The position numbers were made by a program, and so were the translations under genes. A stretch of 64,000 nt of DNA from Alphaproteobacteria bacterium. GTDB lineage: Bacteria; Pseudomonadota; Alphaproteobacteria; Micropepsales; Micropepsaceae. The notes under the pieces are model-generated. The model was not told the origin of the DNA, did no database searches, and worked only from the letters and a program-made list of their open reading frames with translations. This document shows, one piece after another, positions 4,892-24,551 of this stretch. How positions within the stretch are numbered: the first letter of the stretch is position 1; each line of letters begins with the position of its first letter. Location of the stretch: assembly GCA_028871795.1 (NCBI GenBank), contig JAGWMG010000007.1, forward strand, positions 1 to 64,000, given 5' to 3'.

Positions 4892-7800
4892 TCGCTCGCA
4901 TCATCCGCTGGTCGGCGGGCCATTGGGGATTGGTTCTGATTGGGACCGCGGCGCTCGTCGTGCTCGGCATCCTGGCCGTCAGCCGCATCCCGCTCGATGC
5001 CATTCCCGACCTGTCGGATACGCAGGTCATCGTCTACACCGAATATCCCGGCCAGGCACCGCAGGTTGTCGAGGATCAAGTCACGTTTCCCTTGACTTCC
5101 GCGCTCCTCAGCGTGCCCAAGGCCAAGACGGTGCGCGGCGTGTCGTTCTTCGGCGTTTCCTTCATCTATGTGATCTTCGATGAGGGCACGGACATCTACT
5201 GGGCGCGTTCGCGCGTGCTGGAGTACCTGAACGCGGCGGTCCAGCAATTGCCGCAAGGCGTGACACCGAGCCTCGGCCCCGACGCTACCGGCGTCGGCTG
5301 GGTCTATGAATACGCGCTCACCGGCAAGACGCAGGACCTAGCGCAACTGCGGTCGCTACAGGACTGGCATCTGCGCTACGCGCTGGCGAAGACCGAGGGC
5401 GTCTCGGAAGTCGCAAGCGTCGGCGGTTTCGTCAAGCAGTACGCGGTCGTTGCCGACCCGAGCCGGATGCGCGCCTACGGCATCACCCTGGGACAAATCC
5501 GCGATGCGGTGGGGAACGCCAATATGGATGTCGGCGGACGCACCATCGAGCTTTCCGAAACCGAATTCATGATTCGTGGCCGCGGTTACATCAAATCGCC
5601 CAGCGATCTCGACCGTGTGGTGCTGAAAGCCAAGGACGGTACGCCCATCCTTCTCGGCGCCGTTGCGCATATGGAGACCGTTCCAGACGAGCGCCGGGGG
5701 CTGACCGAACTGAACGGCGAGGGCGAGGTGGCATCCGGCATCGTGGTGCAGCGCTTTGGCGCCAATGCGCTCAATGTCATCCGCGCGGTGAAGGCGCGGA
5801 TCGCGGAGATCGCAGCAAGCCTGCCGGCGGGCGTAAAGATGTTGCCGGTCTATGACCGTTCGCAGCTGATAGAGCGGGCCATCGGCACCCTCAAGAGCAC
5901 GCTGCTGGAGGAAAGCGTGATCGTGGCACTGGTTTGCTTCCTGTTCCTGATGCATGCGAGGAGTGCGTTAGTCGCCATTCTCACCCTGCCCGTCGGCATT
6001 CTCATCGCCTTCATCGCCATGCAGGCGCTGGGCATCGGCTCCAACATTATGAGCCTGGGCGGCATCGCGATCGCCATCGGCGCGATGGTGGACGCCGCCA
6101 TCGTGATGATCGAGAACGCGCACAAGCGTCTGGAACGCGCCGGGCCGGACGAACCGCGCCTGAAGGTGTTGGTCGCGGCAGCGGTGGAGGTTGGTCCGGC
6201 ACTGTTCTTCAGCCTTTTGGTCATCACCGTCTCGTTCATCCCGATCTTTGCGCTTCAGGAGCAGGAGGGCCGGTTGTTCCACCCGCTCGCCTTCACGAAA
6301 AGCTTCGCGATGGCGGCGGCAGCGATGCTCTCTGTGACGCTTGTGCCCGCGTTGATGGCACTATTCGTGCGCGGCAGGATCGCGCCCGAGGCAAAAAACC
6401 CGATCAATCGTTTCCTCATCCGGGTCTATCGCCCGGTAATCGCCACGGTGCTGCAGCGACCCTGGGCGACGCTCGGGCTGGCGGCGGCTGTGCTTGCGGT
6501 CAGCCTCTATCCCGCCTCGCGCATCGGCAGCGAGTTCATGCCCACGCTCAACGAAGGCACGCTGCTCTACATGCCGACCACGCTGCCGGGACTGTCGATC
6601 ACCAAGGCGGCGCAAATCCTGCAAACCCAGGACCGCATCATCAAGTCCTTCCCAGAGGTGGAATCCGTGTGGGGCAAGGCGGGGCGCGCCGAGACCGCCA
6701 CCGATCCCGCACCGCTGGAGATGTTCGAGACCGTCATCAACCTGAAGCCGCAGGGGCAATGGCCCTCGGGCATGACCACCGACAAGCTGATCGCGGCGCT
6801 CGACAAGGCGCTGCAGTTCCCCGGCATCAGCAATGCCTGGACCATGCCGATCAAAGCGCGCACCGACATGCTGTCCACGGGCATCCGCACGCCGGTCGGC
6901 GTCAAGGTCTACGGCAAGGACCTGAACGAGATCGAAAAACTGTCGCGCGAAGTGGAGGCGGCGGTGCGCACGGTGCCCGGCACCACGTCGGCCTATGCCG
7001 AACGCGTGAACGGCGGCTATTACCTCGACATCACCCCGGACCGCGAGCAGATCGCCCGCTATGGGTTGTCGATGGACGACGTCCTGTCCACGATCTCGAA
7101 TGCCATCGGCGCCAAGACCATCACGACGACGGTGGAGGGCCGCGAGCGCTACGGCGTGGTGCTGCGCTATCCCCGCGACGTACGCAGCGACCCCGACGCC
7201 ATCGCCGCAAATACGCTGGTGTCGCTGCCGTCGGGCGGAGCGATCCCGCTTGGCGAGGTGGCGAAGGTCACGCGGGCGCGCGGTCCCACCATGATCCGCA
7301 CCGAGGACGGGCAACTCGTGAACTACGTGTATGTGGATTTCCACGACCGCGACCTGGGTGGTTATGTCAAGGACGCCCAGCGCGCGGTGGCCGAACATGT
7401 CTTCTTCCCGCCCGGCACTTACGTGCGTTGGAGTGGCCAGTTCGAATATCTCGAACGGGCGAACCAGCGCCTCAAGATCGTGGTACCGGCGACGCTACTC
7501 CTGATCCTGTTCCTGCTTTGGCTCAACTTCCGCAAACTCTCGGACACCCTGATCGTGATGCTGTCGCTGCCGTTCGCGTTGGCGGGCGGATTCTGGTTTA
7601 TGTGGGCCATGGGCTTCAACATGTCCGTCGCTGCCGCGGTCGGGTTTATCGCCCTGGCGGGTGTGGCAGCGGAAACCGGTGTGGTGATGCTGATTTATCT
7701 CAACAACGCGCTAGGGGAGGCGAAGGCCCAAGCCGCTTCGAACAACAGGACACTGACGCGCGCGGACCTCGCGGCGGCGGTGATGAAAGGCGCCGTGGAC

Positions 7801-19387: not shown

Positions 19388-20413
19388 TCAATAACGAACA
19401 CTCTCGATGAATGCGCGGATGTTGGCGGTGGTGACGCCGGGGGGCATGCCGCCGCCGCAAGACGGAATCAGATGAGTGTGGTCCGCGGTTTCCGACAACA
19501 GTTTGCGCACGGCAGCACGGACGTCGTCAGGCGTGCCCTGCGCCAACACGTCTCGCGGCGGGATGTTGCCGAGAATTGCAAGCCGGTTGCCGGTAGCGCG
19601 ATGGAGGTCGTTCATGGTCATCTGGATGCCTGGGTTGTAGAGGTTGATGCCTAGGTCGGGGTAATACTTGACCGACTGGCGGCAATCGGCATCGTTGTGG
19701 AAGAATTTTACCGAGACCGGTGCGGCGAACAGCTCTTTCAAGTATGGCAAAGCGAACTCCTTGAAATCGCGCTCGCCGATGAATCCGACAATGTCGTCGA
19801 GCACCAGCATGCCATCGATCGAGTCGATGGCCTGTCGCTGACGGGCGTGCCATTCGATGAGGAACGTGTTGATGATGCGCAGCAGTTTGTGGGTCCGCTC
19901 GGGATCGGTGCCGAGCATCATCAAGAACTCCGTGGTGCCCATGAGGAAGGTGGCGATGTTGAGCGGGCCGCGCGAAACGGAGAAGCGGATGCGGTGCCCC
20001 ATCACCTCGATGCGCGCACGGTTGCGGACCAGCCGATTGAGCATGAACGGCAACAGTCCGTCGGTAGTCACGTTTGGTGCCGTGACCTTGTCGATGTCTT
20101 CTTCGGTCAGGATGTTCTTCTCGGCAAAGGGAAACTCGTTCTCGGGAAATTGGCATTTGCACCCGAACGCCGACGGTTCGGTACACATCCCGAACTCCGA
20201 CCAGAACCCCGGCAGGAACATACACTCCGAAAAGGTCTCGATGGCTTTCTTGTTCGCCGCGAACCACACCTCATCGCTGGAGAAGTAATCGAGGATGTTC
20301 ACGCCGTACCAGTTTGGCAACCAGGGGCAGTCAATGATGAACGCTACCGGCAATGGCCGCCGTTGCTCGCCGCGCAAAACCGCAAGTAGATCGTTCCATT
20401 GTTGCTCGGTCAT
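19388..20413 (-). CDS. URO-D superfamily corrinoid methyltransferase-like protein
   Basis: This encodes a 341-residue protein of the uroporphyrinogen-decarboxylase/MtaA-CmuA superfamily. I choose the ATG at 20413 because AAAGGTG precedes it. Members in corrinoid clusters move methyl groups between a corrinoid protein and a thiol or folate, using a zinc site. Candidate ligands are His239 and Cys319 (SCGGGMPPG); the position that is usually Cys in an H-x-C motif is Asp241 here (HND), with Cys244 shortly after. It is divergently transcribed from the homocysteine methyltransferase gene and forms the left end of the corrinoid cassette. It is unlikely to be haem biosynthetic HemE given this context and its divergent active site. 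Confidence 0.8.
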   Translation of the reverse strand: MTEQQWNDLLAVLRGEQRRPLPVAFIIDCPWLPNWYGVNILDYFSSDEVWFAANKKAIETFSECMFLPGFWSEFGMCTEPSAFGCKCQFPENEFPFAEKNILTEEDIDKVTAPNVTTDGLLPFMLNRLVRNRARIEVMGHRIRFSVSRGPLNIATFLMGTTEFLMMLGTDPERTHKLLRIINTFLIEWHARQRQAIDSIDGMLVLDDIVGFIGERDFKEFALPYLKELFAAPVSVKFFHNDADCRQSVKYYPDLGINLYNPGIQMTMNDLHRATGNRLAILGNIPPRDVLAQGTPDDVRAAVRKLLSETADHTHLIPSCGGGMPPGVTTANIRAFIESVRY

Positions 20414-20600
20414 AATTTTCACCTTTGCCGGCCGGCGGAAGACGCACGCCATCGCCTCCAATGTGGCCAGCATACAACCGCGACGGGCTTCTCGACAGCC
20501 CAGTCATGCGACACGTCGTGCATTGCTCGCCACATGGTGACATATTGTGAATCGAAGCCGCAGGATTTTGCGCGGAAGAAGCGGATTTGGAGGACAACGC
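20414..20600. promoter_or_regulatory. Divergent promoter region of the corrinoid cassette
   Basis: This 187-bp interval separates the divergent URO-D and homocysteine methyltransferase genes and must contain both promoters. I could not find a cobalamin riboswitch B12-box or a convincing SAM-riboswitch pattern. A GGAGG ribosome-binding site lies 8 nt before the ATG at 20601. No unambiguous -35/-10 pair was identified. Confidence 0.35.
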
Positions 20601-21485
20601 ATGACACTTCATCCGCTCATCCGGAAACTAATCGATCGGGGACCGACGATCACGGACGGCGCCTGGGGCACGCAACTCCAGGCGCGCGGACTCGCACCGG
20701 GCGAGATGCCGGATCTCTGGAACCTGACCCATCCCAAAGAGGTCGCCGAGGTGGCTCGCGCCTATGTCGCAGCCGGTTCGCAAATCATCCTGACGAACAC
20801 GTTCGGGGCAAACCGCATCCGCCTGGCTGAGAGCGGTTGCGTGGACCGCCTTCTGGAAATCAACCGGGCGGGTGTTGCCCTTTCGCGCGAAGCGGCCGGC
20901 AAACGCGCGTTTGTCTTCGCTTCGGTGGGTCCCAGCGGCAAGCTGTTCGCGAGCGGCGACATAACCGAGAAGGAGTTGCGCGCCGCTTTCACGGAGCAGG
21001 TTCGGGCTCTGGCCGACGGCGGAGCCGATGGCCTGGTGGTGGAAACGATGCAGGACTTGGAGGAAGCGAAACTCGCCACCGCTGCGGCAAATGCCACTGG
21101 CCTGCCGGTGATCGCCAGCATGGTCTTCGATTCGGGTAGGGACAAAGACCGCACGATGATGGGGATCACGCCCGAACAGGCGGCGGCCGGCTTGGTGAAG
21201 GCCGGTGCCGATGTCATCGGCGCGAATTGCGGCCAGGGCATCGCCGGGTTCGTTACGATCTGCGCGCGATTGAAAGCGGCGGCAGACGGACATCCCGTTT
21301 GGATCAAGGCCAACGCCGGTTTGCCACAGATCCGGGATGGAAAAACGGTCTATGCCATGACGGCGGCGGAGTTCACAGGCTATGTCCCCGCCGTGCTGGC
21401 AGCCGGCGCCGACTTCATCGGCGGCTGCTGTGGAACATCTCCGGAATTCATCCGGGATATTCATCGCCTGCTTCGCGCCCTCTGA
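20601..21485 (+). CDS. Homocysteine S-methyltransferase family protein
   Basis: This 294-residue protein has the BHMT/MetH-N-terminal TIM-barrel fold that transfers a methyl group to or from a zinc-bound thiol, classically homocysteine. The three zinc cysteines are intact: Cys210 in GANCGQG and Cys276/Cys277 in GGCCGTSP. The N-terminal DGAWGTQLQARGL motif and the TNTFGANRIRL segment are standard. The length equals the isolated homocysteine domain of MetH, with no corrinoid or folate domains fused. The start at 20601 has GGAGG 8 nt upstream. Its stop overlaps the DUF1638 start (TGATG), and the rest of the cassette provides a separate corrinoid protein and reactivator. Confidence 0.9.
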   Translation: MTLHPLIRKLIDRGPTITDGAWGTQLQARGLAPGEMPDLWNLTHPKEVAEVARAYVAAGSQIILTNTFGANRIRLAESGCVDRLLEINRAGVALSREAAGKRAFVFASVGPSGKLFASGDITEKELRAAFTEQVRALADGGADGLVVETMQDLEEAKLATAAANATGLPVIASMVFDSGRDKDRTMMGITPEQAAAGLVKAGADVIGANCGQGIAGFVTICARLKAAADGHPVWIKANAGLPQIRDGKTVYAMTAAEFTGYVPAVLAAGADFIGGCCGTSPEFIRDIHRLLRAL

Positions 21486-22237
21486 TGGACCGGCTGCGGC
21501 TGTGCGTCATGGCCTGTCCCACGTTCCAACCGGAACTGGAAATGCTCGCTGTCGAAGCCAAGACCGCCGTCACGTTTCGTCGTTTGGAAACTGGCCTGCA
21601 CGAACGCTCCGCCGGAGCCCTCCATGACGTGCTGCAAAGCGCGATCGACCGGGAGGCGGACGACCGATGCGATGCCGTCGCCATCGGCTACGGACTCTGC
21701 CATCACGGCATCGTCGGGCTGCGGGCGCGGACCTTGCCGGTGGTCATTCCGCGGGCGCATGATTGCATCGGAATGCTCCTGGGCGGCAATCGGTGTTATC
21801 TTGCCCAACTGGAAGCGCAGCCCGGCACGTATTTCCAGAGCGCCGGCTGGCTGGAGAATTCGTCAGCCAACGGCGATGTCCGCCAACCGGGTTTCACCTT
21901 CGGCCCCAACTCCAACGTCACACGCGAGCGCCTCGTCGAGCGATACGGCGAAGAAAACGCCGATTACTTGCTCGGGCAATTCGACGGATTCACCCGGCAC
22001 TATGAGCGGCTCGCGTACATCGCCACACCGGTGCCCGCGTCGCCCCGTTGGGAGGCGGCGGCCAAGAAGACCGCCGGCGACCGCAATTGGAAATTCGAGC
22101 GACTCCCGGGCGATCTCGGCTGGTTGCGGCGGCTCTTGAACGGCGAATGGAACGAGCGCGAGTTTCTCACGTTGCGGCCGGGCGAGCGCGTTGTTTTGAC
22201 GTTCGATGAACTTCTTATCGGCGCGGAACCGGCATGA
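21485..22237 (+). CDS. DUF1638 domain protein
   Basis: This encodes a 250-residue soluble protein of the DUF1638 family. The family landmarks are visible: GYGLCHHGIVGLRA, VIPRAHDCIGMLLGG and QPGTYFQSAGWLE. The start overlaps the homocysteine methyltransferase stop and the end overlaps the reactivator start (ATGA), so the three are co-translated. DUF1638 genes recur next to corrinoid methyltransferases in methanogens and bacteria, but their biochemical role is not established. Conserved Cys and His residues suggest a metal or cofactor role. I do not assign a function. Confidence 0.88.
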   Translation: MDRLRLCVMACPTFQPELEMLAVEAKTAVTFRRLETGLHERSAGALHDVLQSAIDREADDRCDAVAIGYGLCHHGIVGLRARTLPVVIPRAHDCIGMLLGGNRCYLAQLEAQPGTYFQSAGWLENSSANGDVRQPGFTFGPNSNVTRERLVERYGEENADYLLGQFDGFTRHYERLAYIATPVPASPRWEAAAKKTAGDRNWKFERLPGDLGWLRRLLNGEWNEREFLTLRPGERVVLTFDELLIGAEPA

Positions 22238-23739
22238 ACCAGCCAACCTGCGACCTCACGCTTTCGCCGGCCGGCAGGCGGCTGAGGGTTGCAGCCGGCT
22301 CGGCGTTGCAGGATGTCCTTTTCGAACAGGGCGTCGAATTTCCCTGTGGCGGCCGCGGGCGATGCAAAAGCTGCCGTGTCAAACTTTTGAAAGGCCGCCT
22401 GCAGGCGAATGCGGAGGAAACCAAGCTACTGACAGCCGTGGAGCTTGCCGACGGCTGGCGTCTGGCATGCCGACATTGCATCGATGGCGATCTGGAGTTG
22501 GAACTCGCGCAATGGGAAATGCCCATCTTGAGCGATCATTCCGCTTTCACGTTTACCCCGCAAGCGGGCCTTGGCGTGGCCGTCGATCTGGGCACCACCA
22601 CGATCGCCGCGCAGCTTCTCGATATGGGAACCGGCAATGTGTTGGCCGTTGCGACGGCGCTGAATGCGCAAGCCCGCCACGGCGACGACATCATAACCCG
22701 CGTCGAGTTCGCGTTGCACGGCGGACAAACGGAGCTCGAGCGGCTGATCCGCGAACAACTCGGGCGGATGATCGAGCACCTGCTGGCTGCGGCGGCGCCG
22801 GAACAATCGCTGGCTCGAATCGTCCTTGTCGGCAATACGGTGATGCATCACCTGTTCTGCGGCATCGACGTCACGCCGCTGGCGACTCACCCTTTCGAGC
22901 CCGAGCATCCGGGAAGGTTCCGATTCTCGCCCTCTCAATTGGGTTGGAATTTCGGCGAGGAAACGATGGTGGAGTTTCTGCCCTGCATCGGCGGCTTGGT
23001 CGGTCCCGACATCTTAGCGGGCATTGTCGCGACCGGTCTGCACGAAGGTGCCGGCCTGGCGGTCCTCCTGGATCTCGGTACCAACGGTGAAGTGGTCGCG
23101 GGGAACCGTGATAAATTGCTTTGTACCTCGACGGCGGCAGGGCCGGCGTTCGAAGGCGCCCGCATCTCGATGGGCATGCGTGCGGCTACCGGCGCCATCA
23201 GCGAGGTGCAACTGATCGACCGCGCCGTTGTATGCCGCGTCATTGGGAGCGGTGCGCCGCGCGGATTGTGCGGCAGCGGGCTGGTGGACGCCGTGGCGGC
23301 GGGATTGGATCTGCGTTGGATAGAAGCCAACGGACGGATGACGCTCGCAGGAGCCATGCCGTTGTCCGGCCCCGTGGCGTTGCTCCCTCAAGACGTGCGC
23401 GAACTGCAGCTGGCCAAGGGGGCGATTGCGGCCGGCCTGCGGATACTCGCCGCGCGATTCGGCGCGACGCTCGCCGATATCCAGCAGCTTTATCTCGCCG
23501 GAGCGTTCGGCAATTACATCAGTCGCACCAGCGCGCAGCGGATCGGCTTGTTGCGCACTCCCGTCGATCGGATCGTTCCCGCCGGCAACACCGCCCTGCT
23601 TGGCGCGAAACGCGCCTTGTTCGAGGACGCAGCCGCTTGGGATGGCCTCGCGTGCCGCATCGAACACGTGGCGCTCCATGAAGAGCCGGAATTTCAAGAC
23701 ATCTTCGCCGAGGAAATGCGCTTCCCCGAGACGGCCTAG
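22234..23739 (+). CDS. RACo/RamA-type corrinoid reductive activator (2Fe-2S plus ASKHA, DUF4445)
   Basis: This 501-residue protein is expected to re-reduce Co(II) corrinoid to the active Co(I) form at the expense of ATP. The N-terminal ferredoxin domain carries a plant-type 2Fe-2S motif at Cys38, Cys44, Cys47 and Cys79 (PCGGRGRCKSC and LACRHC). An ASKHA ATPase-like domain follows, with the phosphate motif AVDLGTTTIAAQLLD near residue 116 and later LLDLGTNGEVVAGN and LAGAFGNYI. It is shorter than the roughly 630-residue activators of acetogens and lacks an extended linker domain. It overlaps DUF1638 and converges with the corrinoid protein gene, overlapping it by 4 bp. Confidence 0.9.
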   Translation: MNQPTCDLTLSPAGRRLRVAAGSALQDVLFEQGVEFPCGGRGRCKSCRVKLLKGRLQANAEETKLLTAVELADGWRLACRHCIDGDLELELAQWEMPILSDHSAFTFTPQAGLGVAVDLGTTTIAAQLLDMGTGNVLAVATALNAQARHGDDIITRVEFALHGGQTELERLIREQLGRMIEHLLAAAAPEQSLARIVLVGNTVMHHLFCGIDVTPLATHPFEPEHPGRFRFSPSQLGWNFGEETMVEFLPCIGGLVGPDILAGIVATGLHEGAGLAVLLDLGTNGEVVAGNRDKLLCTSTAAGPAFEGARISMGMRAATGAISEVQLIDRAVVCRVIGSGAPRGLCGSGLVDAVAAGLDLRWIEANGRMTLAGAMPLSGPVALLPQDVRELQLAKGAIAAGLRILAARFGATLADIQQLYLAGAFGNYISRTSAQRIGLLRTPVDRIVPAGNTALLGAKRALFEDAAAWDGLACRIEHVALHEEPEFQDIFAEEMRFPETA

Positions 23740-24362
23740 AGTTCGCGGGCCGCTGCCACCGCGCCGGCCGCGCTTTTGCTGTAACCGTCGGCGCCGATCT
23801 CCTCGGCGTATTTCTCACTGATGGGCGCGCCGCCGACCATCACTTTCACCTGGTCGCGAATGCCGGCTTGTTTCAAAGCTTCGATGGTGGTTTTCATGGC
23901 CGGCATCGTGGTGGTCAACAGAGCGGACATCGCGACGATCCGCGCGTTCTTTTCCTTCACGGCCGTCACGAATTTCTCCGGCTCCACGTTCACGCCCAGG
24001 TCGATGACCTCGTAGCCGCCGCCTTCGAGCATGGCGGCGACCAAGTTCTTGCCGATGTCGTGGAGGTCGCCTTTGACGGTTCCGATGACGATGCGTCCGG
24101 CTGGTTCCACGCCGCCGGCGATGAGCAACGGACGAATAAGCTCCAAGGCGGCTTTCATGGCGCGCGCGGCGAGAAGCAGCTCCGGCACAAAATACTCGTT
24201 GCACTCAAACCGGCGCCCCACCTCGTCCATCGCCGGCATCATGGTTTCCTGAACCAGCTTCATCGGCTCGACACCGGCGGCAAAGGCGGCTTCGGTGGTG
24301 GCTTTTGCCGTCTTCGCGTCCCCTGTGAGGATCGCATCATGCAATGGTTTGAGGTCCGGCAT
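23736..24362 (-). CDS. Methyltransferase-cognate corrinoid protein (B12-binding)
   Basis: This 208-residue corrinoid protein carries the methyl group between methyltransferases. An N-terminal four-helix cap domain (residues 1-85, with ETMMPAMDEVGRRFECNEYFVPELLLAARAM-type helices) precedes the Rossmann B12 domain. The cobalt ligand motif is D99-L-H101-D-I-G104 in GTVKGDLHDIGKN; Ser146 and the Gly177-Gly178 loop that hold the B12 tail are also in place. I choose the ATG at 24362 because AAGGAA precedes it. It is the MtbC/MttC/MetH-cap-like partner for the homocysteine methyltransferase and URO-D proteins and the substrate of the adjacent reactivator. Confidence 0.93.
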   Translation of the reverse strand: MPDLKPLHDAILTGDAKTAKATTEAAFAAGVEPMKLVQETMMPAMDEVGRRFECNEYFVPELLLAARAMKAALELIRPLLIAGGVEPAGRIVIGTVKGDLHDIGKNLVAAMLEGGGYEVIDLGVNVEPEKFVTAVKEKNARIVAMSALLTTTMPAMKTTIEALKQAGIRDQVKVMVGGAPISEKYAEEIGADGYSKSAAGAVAAAREL

Positions 24363-24551
24363 GGGATTTCCTTTTGACCCGTTCAAATCACAGTGCGGCG
24401 AGGATTTCGCTGGGCAATATAGCAGTTGGCCGCAAGAAACGCCTCACCGGAATGGAACTCGCCTGACCGATTTTTTTTGGACAATGCGGTTTGAGAGAAC
24501 CTGTCTTGGAAAGGAGCTTGGCTATGGCGAAGAAGACTTCGGCGACGCACG

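Follow-up and report, generated by a model that had tools for sequence, protein, structure and literature searches.

A putative corrinoid methyl-transfer cassette of Rhizomicrobium, its URO-D-superfamily protein and a link to glucuronoxylan genes

The cassette and the genome that carries it

We analyzed a stretch of 64,000 nucleotides (the window; positions 1 to 64,000 of contig JAGWMG010000007.1, assembly GCA_028871795.1) from an alphaproteobacterium of the Micropepsaceae, and in it a putative corrinoid methyl-transfer cassette of five genes at 19388-24386. These encode a URO-D-superfamily protein (URO-D), a homocysteine-methyltransferase-type protein (HMT), a DUF1638 protein, a RACo/RamA-like reductive activator (RACo) and a stand-alone corrinoid protein (CorP). 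Pfam profiles and open reading frames (ORFs) confirmed the arrangement described in an earlier note on this DNA: by ORF coordinates and homology-based starts, HMT, DUF1638 and RACo form a single overlapping unit on the + strand, CorP lies tail-to-tail with RACo, and URO-D diverges from the unit (Table 1). The HMT stop (21483-21485) and the DUF1638 ATG have one base in common, the DUF1638 stop is overlapped by the RACo ATG at 22234, and the convergent 3' ends of RACo and CorP overlap by 4 bases. Likely starts of URO-D, HMT, DUF1638 and CorP were set by comparison with homologues, and the intergenic stretch that they leave between URO-D and HMT is a possible shared control region of the two genes.

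Table 1. Features of the cassette, in window coordinates
Feature	Position	Strand	Basis and proposed role
URO-D-superfamily protein	19388..20413 (ORF listed to 20473)	-	Pfam URO-D 4.7e-36; proposed MT1
Divergent intergenic region, 187 bases	20414..20600		Between URO-D and HMT; position only, homology-based starts
HMT	20601..21485 (ORF listed from 20547)	+	Pfam PF02574 S-methyl_trans 2e-66; proposed MT2
DUF1638 protein	21485..22237	+	Pfam PF07796 1e-34; start by homology
RACo/RamA-like reductive activator	22234..23739	+	Pfam Fer2, Raco_middle, RACo_C_ter 2.8e-61; 2Fe-2S plus ASKHA domains
CorP, stand-alone corrinoid protein	23736..24362 (ORF listed to 24386)	-	Pfam B12-binding 2e-31 plus B12-binding_2

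HMT consists of the homocysteine S-methyltransferase domain alone, and its translation carries GANC and GGCCG motifs, which we take to be zinc ligands; it resembles betaine:homocysteine methyltransferase, under the curated cut-off. CorP has a DLHDIG cobalamin motif and is MtgC/MtbC-like, its best NCBIfam match being MtgC-like at 220 bits, under that family's cut-off of 370. DUF1638 has been tied in print to corrinoid reactivation (Price 2018, PMC5764234).

The source genome (2.98 Mb, 22 contigs, 95.6% completeness) also encodes a complete MetH on contig C11, a 1335 amino acid ORF with S-methyl_trans, Pterin_bind, both B12 domains and the activation domain. Two proteins each match PF02574 (MetH and the cassette HMT) and PF00809 (MetH and a dihydropteroate synthase, over its cut-off), and there are two URO-D genes, that of the cassette and one on contig C19 (335 bits to PF01208). 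PF06253 (MttB/MtgB) had 0 matches in this 95.6% complete genome, nor was a separate pterin-binding subunit found in it, PF00809 being matched only by the two proteins named. Because MttB is absent and only MetH and dihydropteroate synthase bind pterin, URO-D is the plain donor-side candidate. The earlier note had seen no methyl-donor enzyme at the locus; indeed, neither MttB nor a separate pterin-type protein occurs in the genome searched (the search did not extend to MtaB and MtrH), but URO-D itself is a candidate donor-side methyltransferase.

With a full MetH present, MttB absent and no extra pterin-binding protein, the cassette is therefore neither the cell's sole methionine synthase, which the full MetH rules out, nor the known glycine-betaine (Mtg) system, which was rejected on the absence of MttB. 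The note had held that an ordinary metH, together with no effect on growth when the cassette is deleted, would speak against its proposal, and the MetH found here, with its pterin, corrinoid and activation domains, leaves dependence on the cassette as a split methionine synthase unsupported.

Conservation of the cassette and of the URO-D subfamily

DUF1638 was present in 25 of the 195 genomes searched, 7 of them Rhizomicrobium, including the source genome. All 6 other DUF1638-bearing Rhizomicrobium genomes have URO-D, HMT, DUF1638 and RACo in the same layout, and in 5 of the 6 CorP follows RACo. The sixth is L037, a 6-kb contig, in which a transposase-like ORF, recognized by eye, directly follows RACo at 5055-6002, in the place of CorP, and CorP was not found on the last 1034 bases of the contig. 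This layout in Rhizomicrobium is not chance. Cassette URO-D is carried by 7 of 69 Rhizomicrobium genomes; one more (G029) has weak, different matches only and was scored negative. The flanks of the Rhizomicrobium cassettes fall into three contexts on the compared stretches, those of the window being common to none of the others, which suggests that the cassette was gained or moved more than once. A plasmid search returned distant relatives only (6 records, best 34.6% identity). As for the 18 DUF1638 matches elsewhere in the class, no URO-D of the cassette kind was found on the stretches examined; CorP is present in 16 of these 18 loci, which fit the published Mtg layout in outline.

The AlphaFold2 model of URO-D (pLDDT 88.8) has as its best solved relative the methylcobalamin:CoM methyltransferase 4ay7 (Z 31.2, rmsd 2.6, 325 aligned). 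Against TIGR01463, the MtaA/CmuA family, URO-D scored 66.1 bits, under the curated cut-off of 235.4; that it is a true HemE was rejected at 47.3 bits to TIGR01464 (cut-off 302.95). In a sequence alignment H259 and D261 fall on the His and the Cys, respectively, of the His-x-Cys pair of 4ay7, and its later Cys falls on G341, with C339 two residues before; the aligned His-Cys-Cys positions of 4ay7 are presumably the zinc ligands of MtaA. H259 and D261 are present in 102/102 subfamily sequences and C339 in 98. We therefore predict a metal site of the O-type pattern, with a carboxylate for Cys: S-type UroD methyltransferases have His-Cys-Cys, and O-type enzymes swap one or both Cys for carboxylate or other residues (Kountz and Balskus, PMC10418091).

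A contig scan yielded 238 stretches with URO-D relatives, of which the best 80 were kept, 5 from Rhizomicrobium or kin and 75 from outside the genus. Among these best 80, the subfamily outside the genus occurs in Verrucomicrobia, Bacteroidetes, Lentisphaerae, Ignavibacteria, an Acidobacteriota and others. Within 8 kb of URO-D, the 75 outside loci hold HMT in 16, CorP in 15, both in 12 and at least one in 19, and a PF02607 match was found in 48/50 URO-D genomes, 46 of them with one in a 200-285 amino acid frame. The co-conservation raised as a question in the earlier note thus holds in this form: the five-gene set is kept in part of Rhizomicrobium, and URO-D, HMT and CorP recur jointly in other phyla.

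RACo and DUF1638 were not found accompanying URO-D outside the genus, except for one RACo match (L090). A Met_synt_B12-type activation-domain protein is present in 15 of the 75 outside loci (one tested: 243 amino acids, 46 bits, cut-off 25), and in the Bacteroidetes and Ignavibacteria clusters this protein of ~243 amino acids may stand in for RACo/DUF1638. The one at L105:1573-2304 and its relatives, ~243 amino acids long, are over the Pfam MetH-activation cut-off and weak against full MetH models. At four loci a second URO-D-superfamily gene lies beside or near the first (L137:9036-10061, L139:9099-10118, L114:11729-12775 and L128:9075-10079); by alignment these have a His-x-Cys and GC pattern like that of CoM methyltransferases.

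In trees rooted on the source genome's own MetH, HMT groups with URO-D-linked HMTs of other phyla and not with 4 alphaproteobacterial MtgE-like proteins, the only alphaproteobacterial entries, and CorP groups with URO-D-linked CorP. By bit score CorP gave 169-188 to alphaproteobacterial MtgC-like proteins vs 150-175 to URO-D-linked CorP; its ancestry is ambiguous, and an iqtree run without outgroup cannot decide it.

Association with glucuronoxylan genes

Hardwood xylan commonly carries 4-O-methyl-glucuronic acid as a side group. The alpha-glucuronidases GH115 and GH67, which act on such 4-O-methyl-glucuronate groups and release them, are well known; UxuA, ManD and fructuronate reductase take part in the use of glucuronate. 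When the neighbours of URO-D were clustered, GH115, GH67, GH43, GH10, UxuA, an SDR and an MFS transporter came out, and those of the MFS proteins that were tested resemble a galactonate transporter family, under its cut-off. GH115, GH67 or UxuA lies within 8 kb of URO-D in 22 of 101 loci overall and in 19 of the 75 outside the genus, 7 of the 19 also carrying a corrinoid part within that distance. At two loci the genes are closely joined. In L075 the GH115 and URO-D genes overlap, and in a FastTree phylogeny this URO-D branches next to that of Rhizomicrobium, as its sister; in the Acidobacteriota locus L104 an MFS transporter, URO-D, UxuA and an SDR follow one another with overlapping ends, adjoining GH67.

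GH115 lay within 8 kb of URO-D in 8/50 loci vs 0.22 expected from the genome-wide count, these 50 having been hand-picked from the 75 after the neighbourhoods were seen, mostly with longer flanks, and holding all 8 GH115-near loci (8/75 overall). Anywhere in the genome, GH115 was found in 42/50 URO-D genomes vs 2/14 controls, which were not matched in kind, and in 34/42 once the 8 genomes with nearby GH115 were left out; the GH115 counts take in matches that exceed the family cut-off but are short or weak.

We also compared presence profiles within two groups, uncorrected for phylogeny or genome size. GH67 is present in 7/7 URO-D Rhizomicrobium genomes vs 17/62 others (p 3e-4, with the GH67 fragment of G051 scored positive; p 2.3e-4 without G051). 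Across 393 genomes of the Bacteroidota order to which the Marinilabiliaceae record L072 belongs, GH115 is present in 16/27 URO-D genomes vs 48/366 (p 1.4e-7), and in 11/22 when the 5 genomes already in the locus set are removed (p 8e-5). URO-D was called there at 300 bits, a cut chosen after a gap between 333 and 131 bits had been seen; 69/393 genomes pass E 0.001, mostly with other URO-D proteins, and G302, with URO-D fragments only, was scored negative.

In the source genome, 66894-94013 of contig C3, which also carries the window, holds at 42-70 kb from the cassette MFS, ManD, GH43, GH115, GH10, GH67, a fructuronate-reductase-like gene and GH3, with ManD over its cut-off and the fructuronate-reductase-like gene under it. 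This glucuronoxylan utilisation locus, past the window's right end, also has a TonB receptor and a LacI-type regulator. In Rhizomicrobium the link to alpha-glucuronidase genes is one of co-occurrence (7/7) and not adjacency, and in other phyla it is one of neighbourhood. The earlier note had left the methyl source a question; the neighbourhoods elsewhere point to glucuronoxylan. At the right end of the window, by eye, an ORF at 63187-64245 starts like a phage-type integrase.

A proposed pathway, its alternatives and known systems

From the observed gene content, conservation, statistical and positional tie to xylan and glucuronate genes and His-Asp site, we consider it moderately probable that the cassette is a corrinoid O-demethylase of three components that acts on 4-O-methyl-glucuronate, uses homocysteine as acceptor and has its own reactivation; the substrate, every reaction and the direction of transfer are inferred. 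URO-D is likely the donor-side corrinoid methyltransferase, and 4-O-methyl-glucuronate is, on balance, probably its substrate. In this proposal GH115 and GH67 alpha-glucuronidases would release 4-O-methyl-D-glucuronate from glucuronoxylan, URO-D would move the methyl group from it (or a close derivative) onto the Co(I) of CorP, and HMT would make methionine by passing it on from methyl-CorP to homocysteine. Glucuronate, now free of its methyl group, would enter the uronate pathway through fructuronate reductase and mannonate dehydratase, and RACo would re-reduce CorP after oxidation to Co(II), DUF1638 helping in some way. The earlier note had offered a split methionine synthase or a demethylation pathway; we favour both at once, demethylation with homocysteine as acceptor, and drop the cell's reliance on the cassette as its split methionine synthase, given the full MetH.

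Several observations weigh against this proposal. The URO-D model is equally near the true uroporphyrinogen decarboxylase fold (Z 31.0), and the argument from the His-Asp site is indirect, because not every donor enzyme of the UroD type needs zinc: it is reported to be missing from CdmB and from one O-demethylase (PMC13222342). Neither HMT nor CorP lies within 8 kb of URO-D in 56 of the 75 outside loci, GH115, GH67 and UxuA are likewise all missing from that span in 56, many contigs being short, and 4/50 URO-D genomes have no corrinoid protein in a 200-285 amino acid frame. In the Bacteroidota order 11/27 URO-D genomes have no GH115 (GH67 was not searched there), and the profile tests, as said, leave phylogeny and genome size uncorrected. 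The cassette does not adjoin the xylan locus in Rhizomicrobium; the 6 other Rhizomicrobium genomes with URO-D all have it on a different contig from GH67, the source genome alone having both on one contig. Finally, a GFO/IDH/MocA oxidoreductase lies within 8 kb of URO-D in 12/101 loci (L247, L250, L252, L255, L256, L258, L259, L071, L073, L077, L094 and L134, mostly not in a xylan setting), and from these neighbours the subfamily may not be confined to a single methyl ether.

The last point leads to the alternative that the three-component mechanism is the same but the methyl group comes from a small methyl ether or from another O-methylated sugar; the xylan link would then reflect plant-biomass degraders generally. 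It draws on the other URO-D clades near GFO/IDH/MocA genes or other glycoside hydrolases and on the 11 Bacteroidota genomes without GH115; we hold it to be unlikely, though a real possibility, since in the lineage sister to the Rhizomicrobium URO-D the gene overlaps one for GH115, another member is flanked by an MFS transporter and UxuA-SDR, and the enriched neighbours are genes for releasing and using glucuronate. The roles could also be reversed, with URO-D on the acceptor side, passing methyl from the corrinoid to a thiol as MtaA does, and HMT on the donor side, where it would take methyl from a methylthiol or a compound like methionine. The top fold match by Z is a CoM methyltransferase (4ay7, 31.2, tied with URO-D), yet the His-x-Cys pair is His-x-Asp in all 102 sequences, unlike S-type enzymes, and the glucuronate-gene neighbourhoods would go unexplained, so that this exchange of roles seems quite improbable.

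The remaining alternatives concern known methionine-forming systems. Phaeobacter inhibens (PMC5764234) has parts of the same kinds as HMT, CorP, DUF1638 and the RamA-like protein, and in a split methionine synthase of that type MetH or another enzyme would methylate CorP from methyl-folate and HMT would make methionine, URO-D being incidental or a methyl-folate enzyme. With pterin-binding proteins limited to MetH and dihydropteroate synthase, a full MetH in the genome, and URO-D, across phyla, as the recurrent partner of HMT and CorP, this too is improbable. Demethylation of glycine betaine or another methylamine by an Mtg-type system is more improbable still: CorP is MtgC-like and HMT is betaine:homocysteine-methyltransferase-like, both under curated cut-offs, but the genome has no PF06253 MttB/MtgB, the donor enzyme of that system (PMC12478193).

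Our search of open-licence papers found neither corrinoid or URO-D demethylation of methyl-glucuronate nor a described bacterial route for removing the methyl group of 4-O-methyl-glucuronate. That the cassette represents a new cross-phylum pathway, in which a UroD-superfamily B12 sugar-ether demethylase would send the methyl of 4-O-methyl-glucuronate to methionine without folate, is close to an even call that we resolve narrowly in its favour. If true, it would name a candidate gene for 4-O-methyl-glucuronate demethylation, and with it how a common wood sugar is opened for use, assign a role to a large protein group matching the uroporphyrinogen decarboxylase family, and tie wood breakdown to methionine and B12.

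The closest known counterparts are the MtgBCDE system described by Mausz et al. 2025 (PMC12478193) and the split methionine synthase, in Ruegeria pomeroyi and Phaeobacter inhibens (PMC12478193, PMC5764234), which likewise have a stand-alone corrinoid protein, HMT, RamA-like activator, DUF1638 and a methyl flow to methionine. The cassette differs from them in having a URO-D donor candidate and not MttB, no separate pterin subunit, its own MetH in the genome and an HMT of the URO-D-linked lineage. Price et al. 2018, who tied DUF1638 and a RamA-like protein to the split synthase, remarked that both also occur with a standard MetH, unexplained (PMC5764234), and our proposal may bear on why they are kept.

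The UroD-superfamily O-demethylases and dehalogenases (MtvB, OdmB, VdmB, MtoB, CdmB and CmuA; PMC13222342) share with the cassette the superfamily, mostly a separate corrinoid protein and an ATP-dependent activator, and O-type UroD enzymes share the replacement of Cys ligands (PMC10418091); CdmB came up only as a weak match of a paralogue. These enzymes are known to take methyl groups from methoxylated aromatics or haloalkanes, with folate as the acceptor in the Cdm system (PMC13222342). For the cassette, in contrast, a sugar ether and homocysteine are proposed. Type 1 mlp clusters resemble the cassette in their URO-D-superfamily proteins, corrinoid protein, Ram/RACE activator and lack of a folate methyltransferase, but have His-Cys-Cys sites (few exceptions) and a proposed sulfur/selenium role (PMC10418091), whereas the cassette has His-Asp and no such genes were seen nearby. 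None of the parts is new in itself. Within the reach of our searches, what is new is their combination: a URO-D donor enzyme together with a sugar ether and homocysteine.

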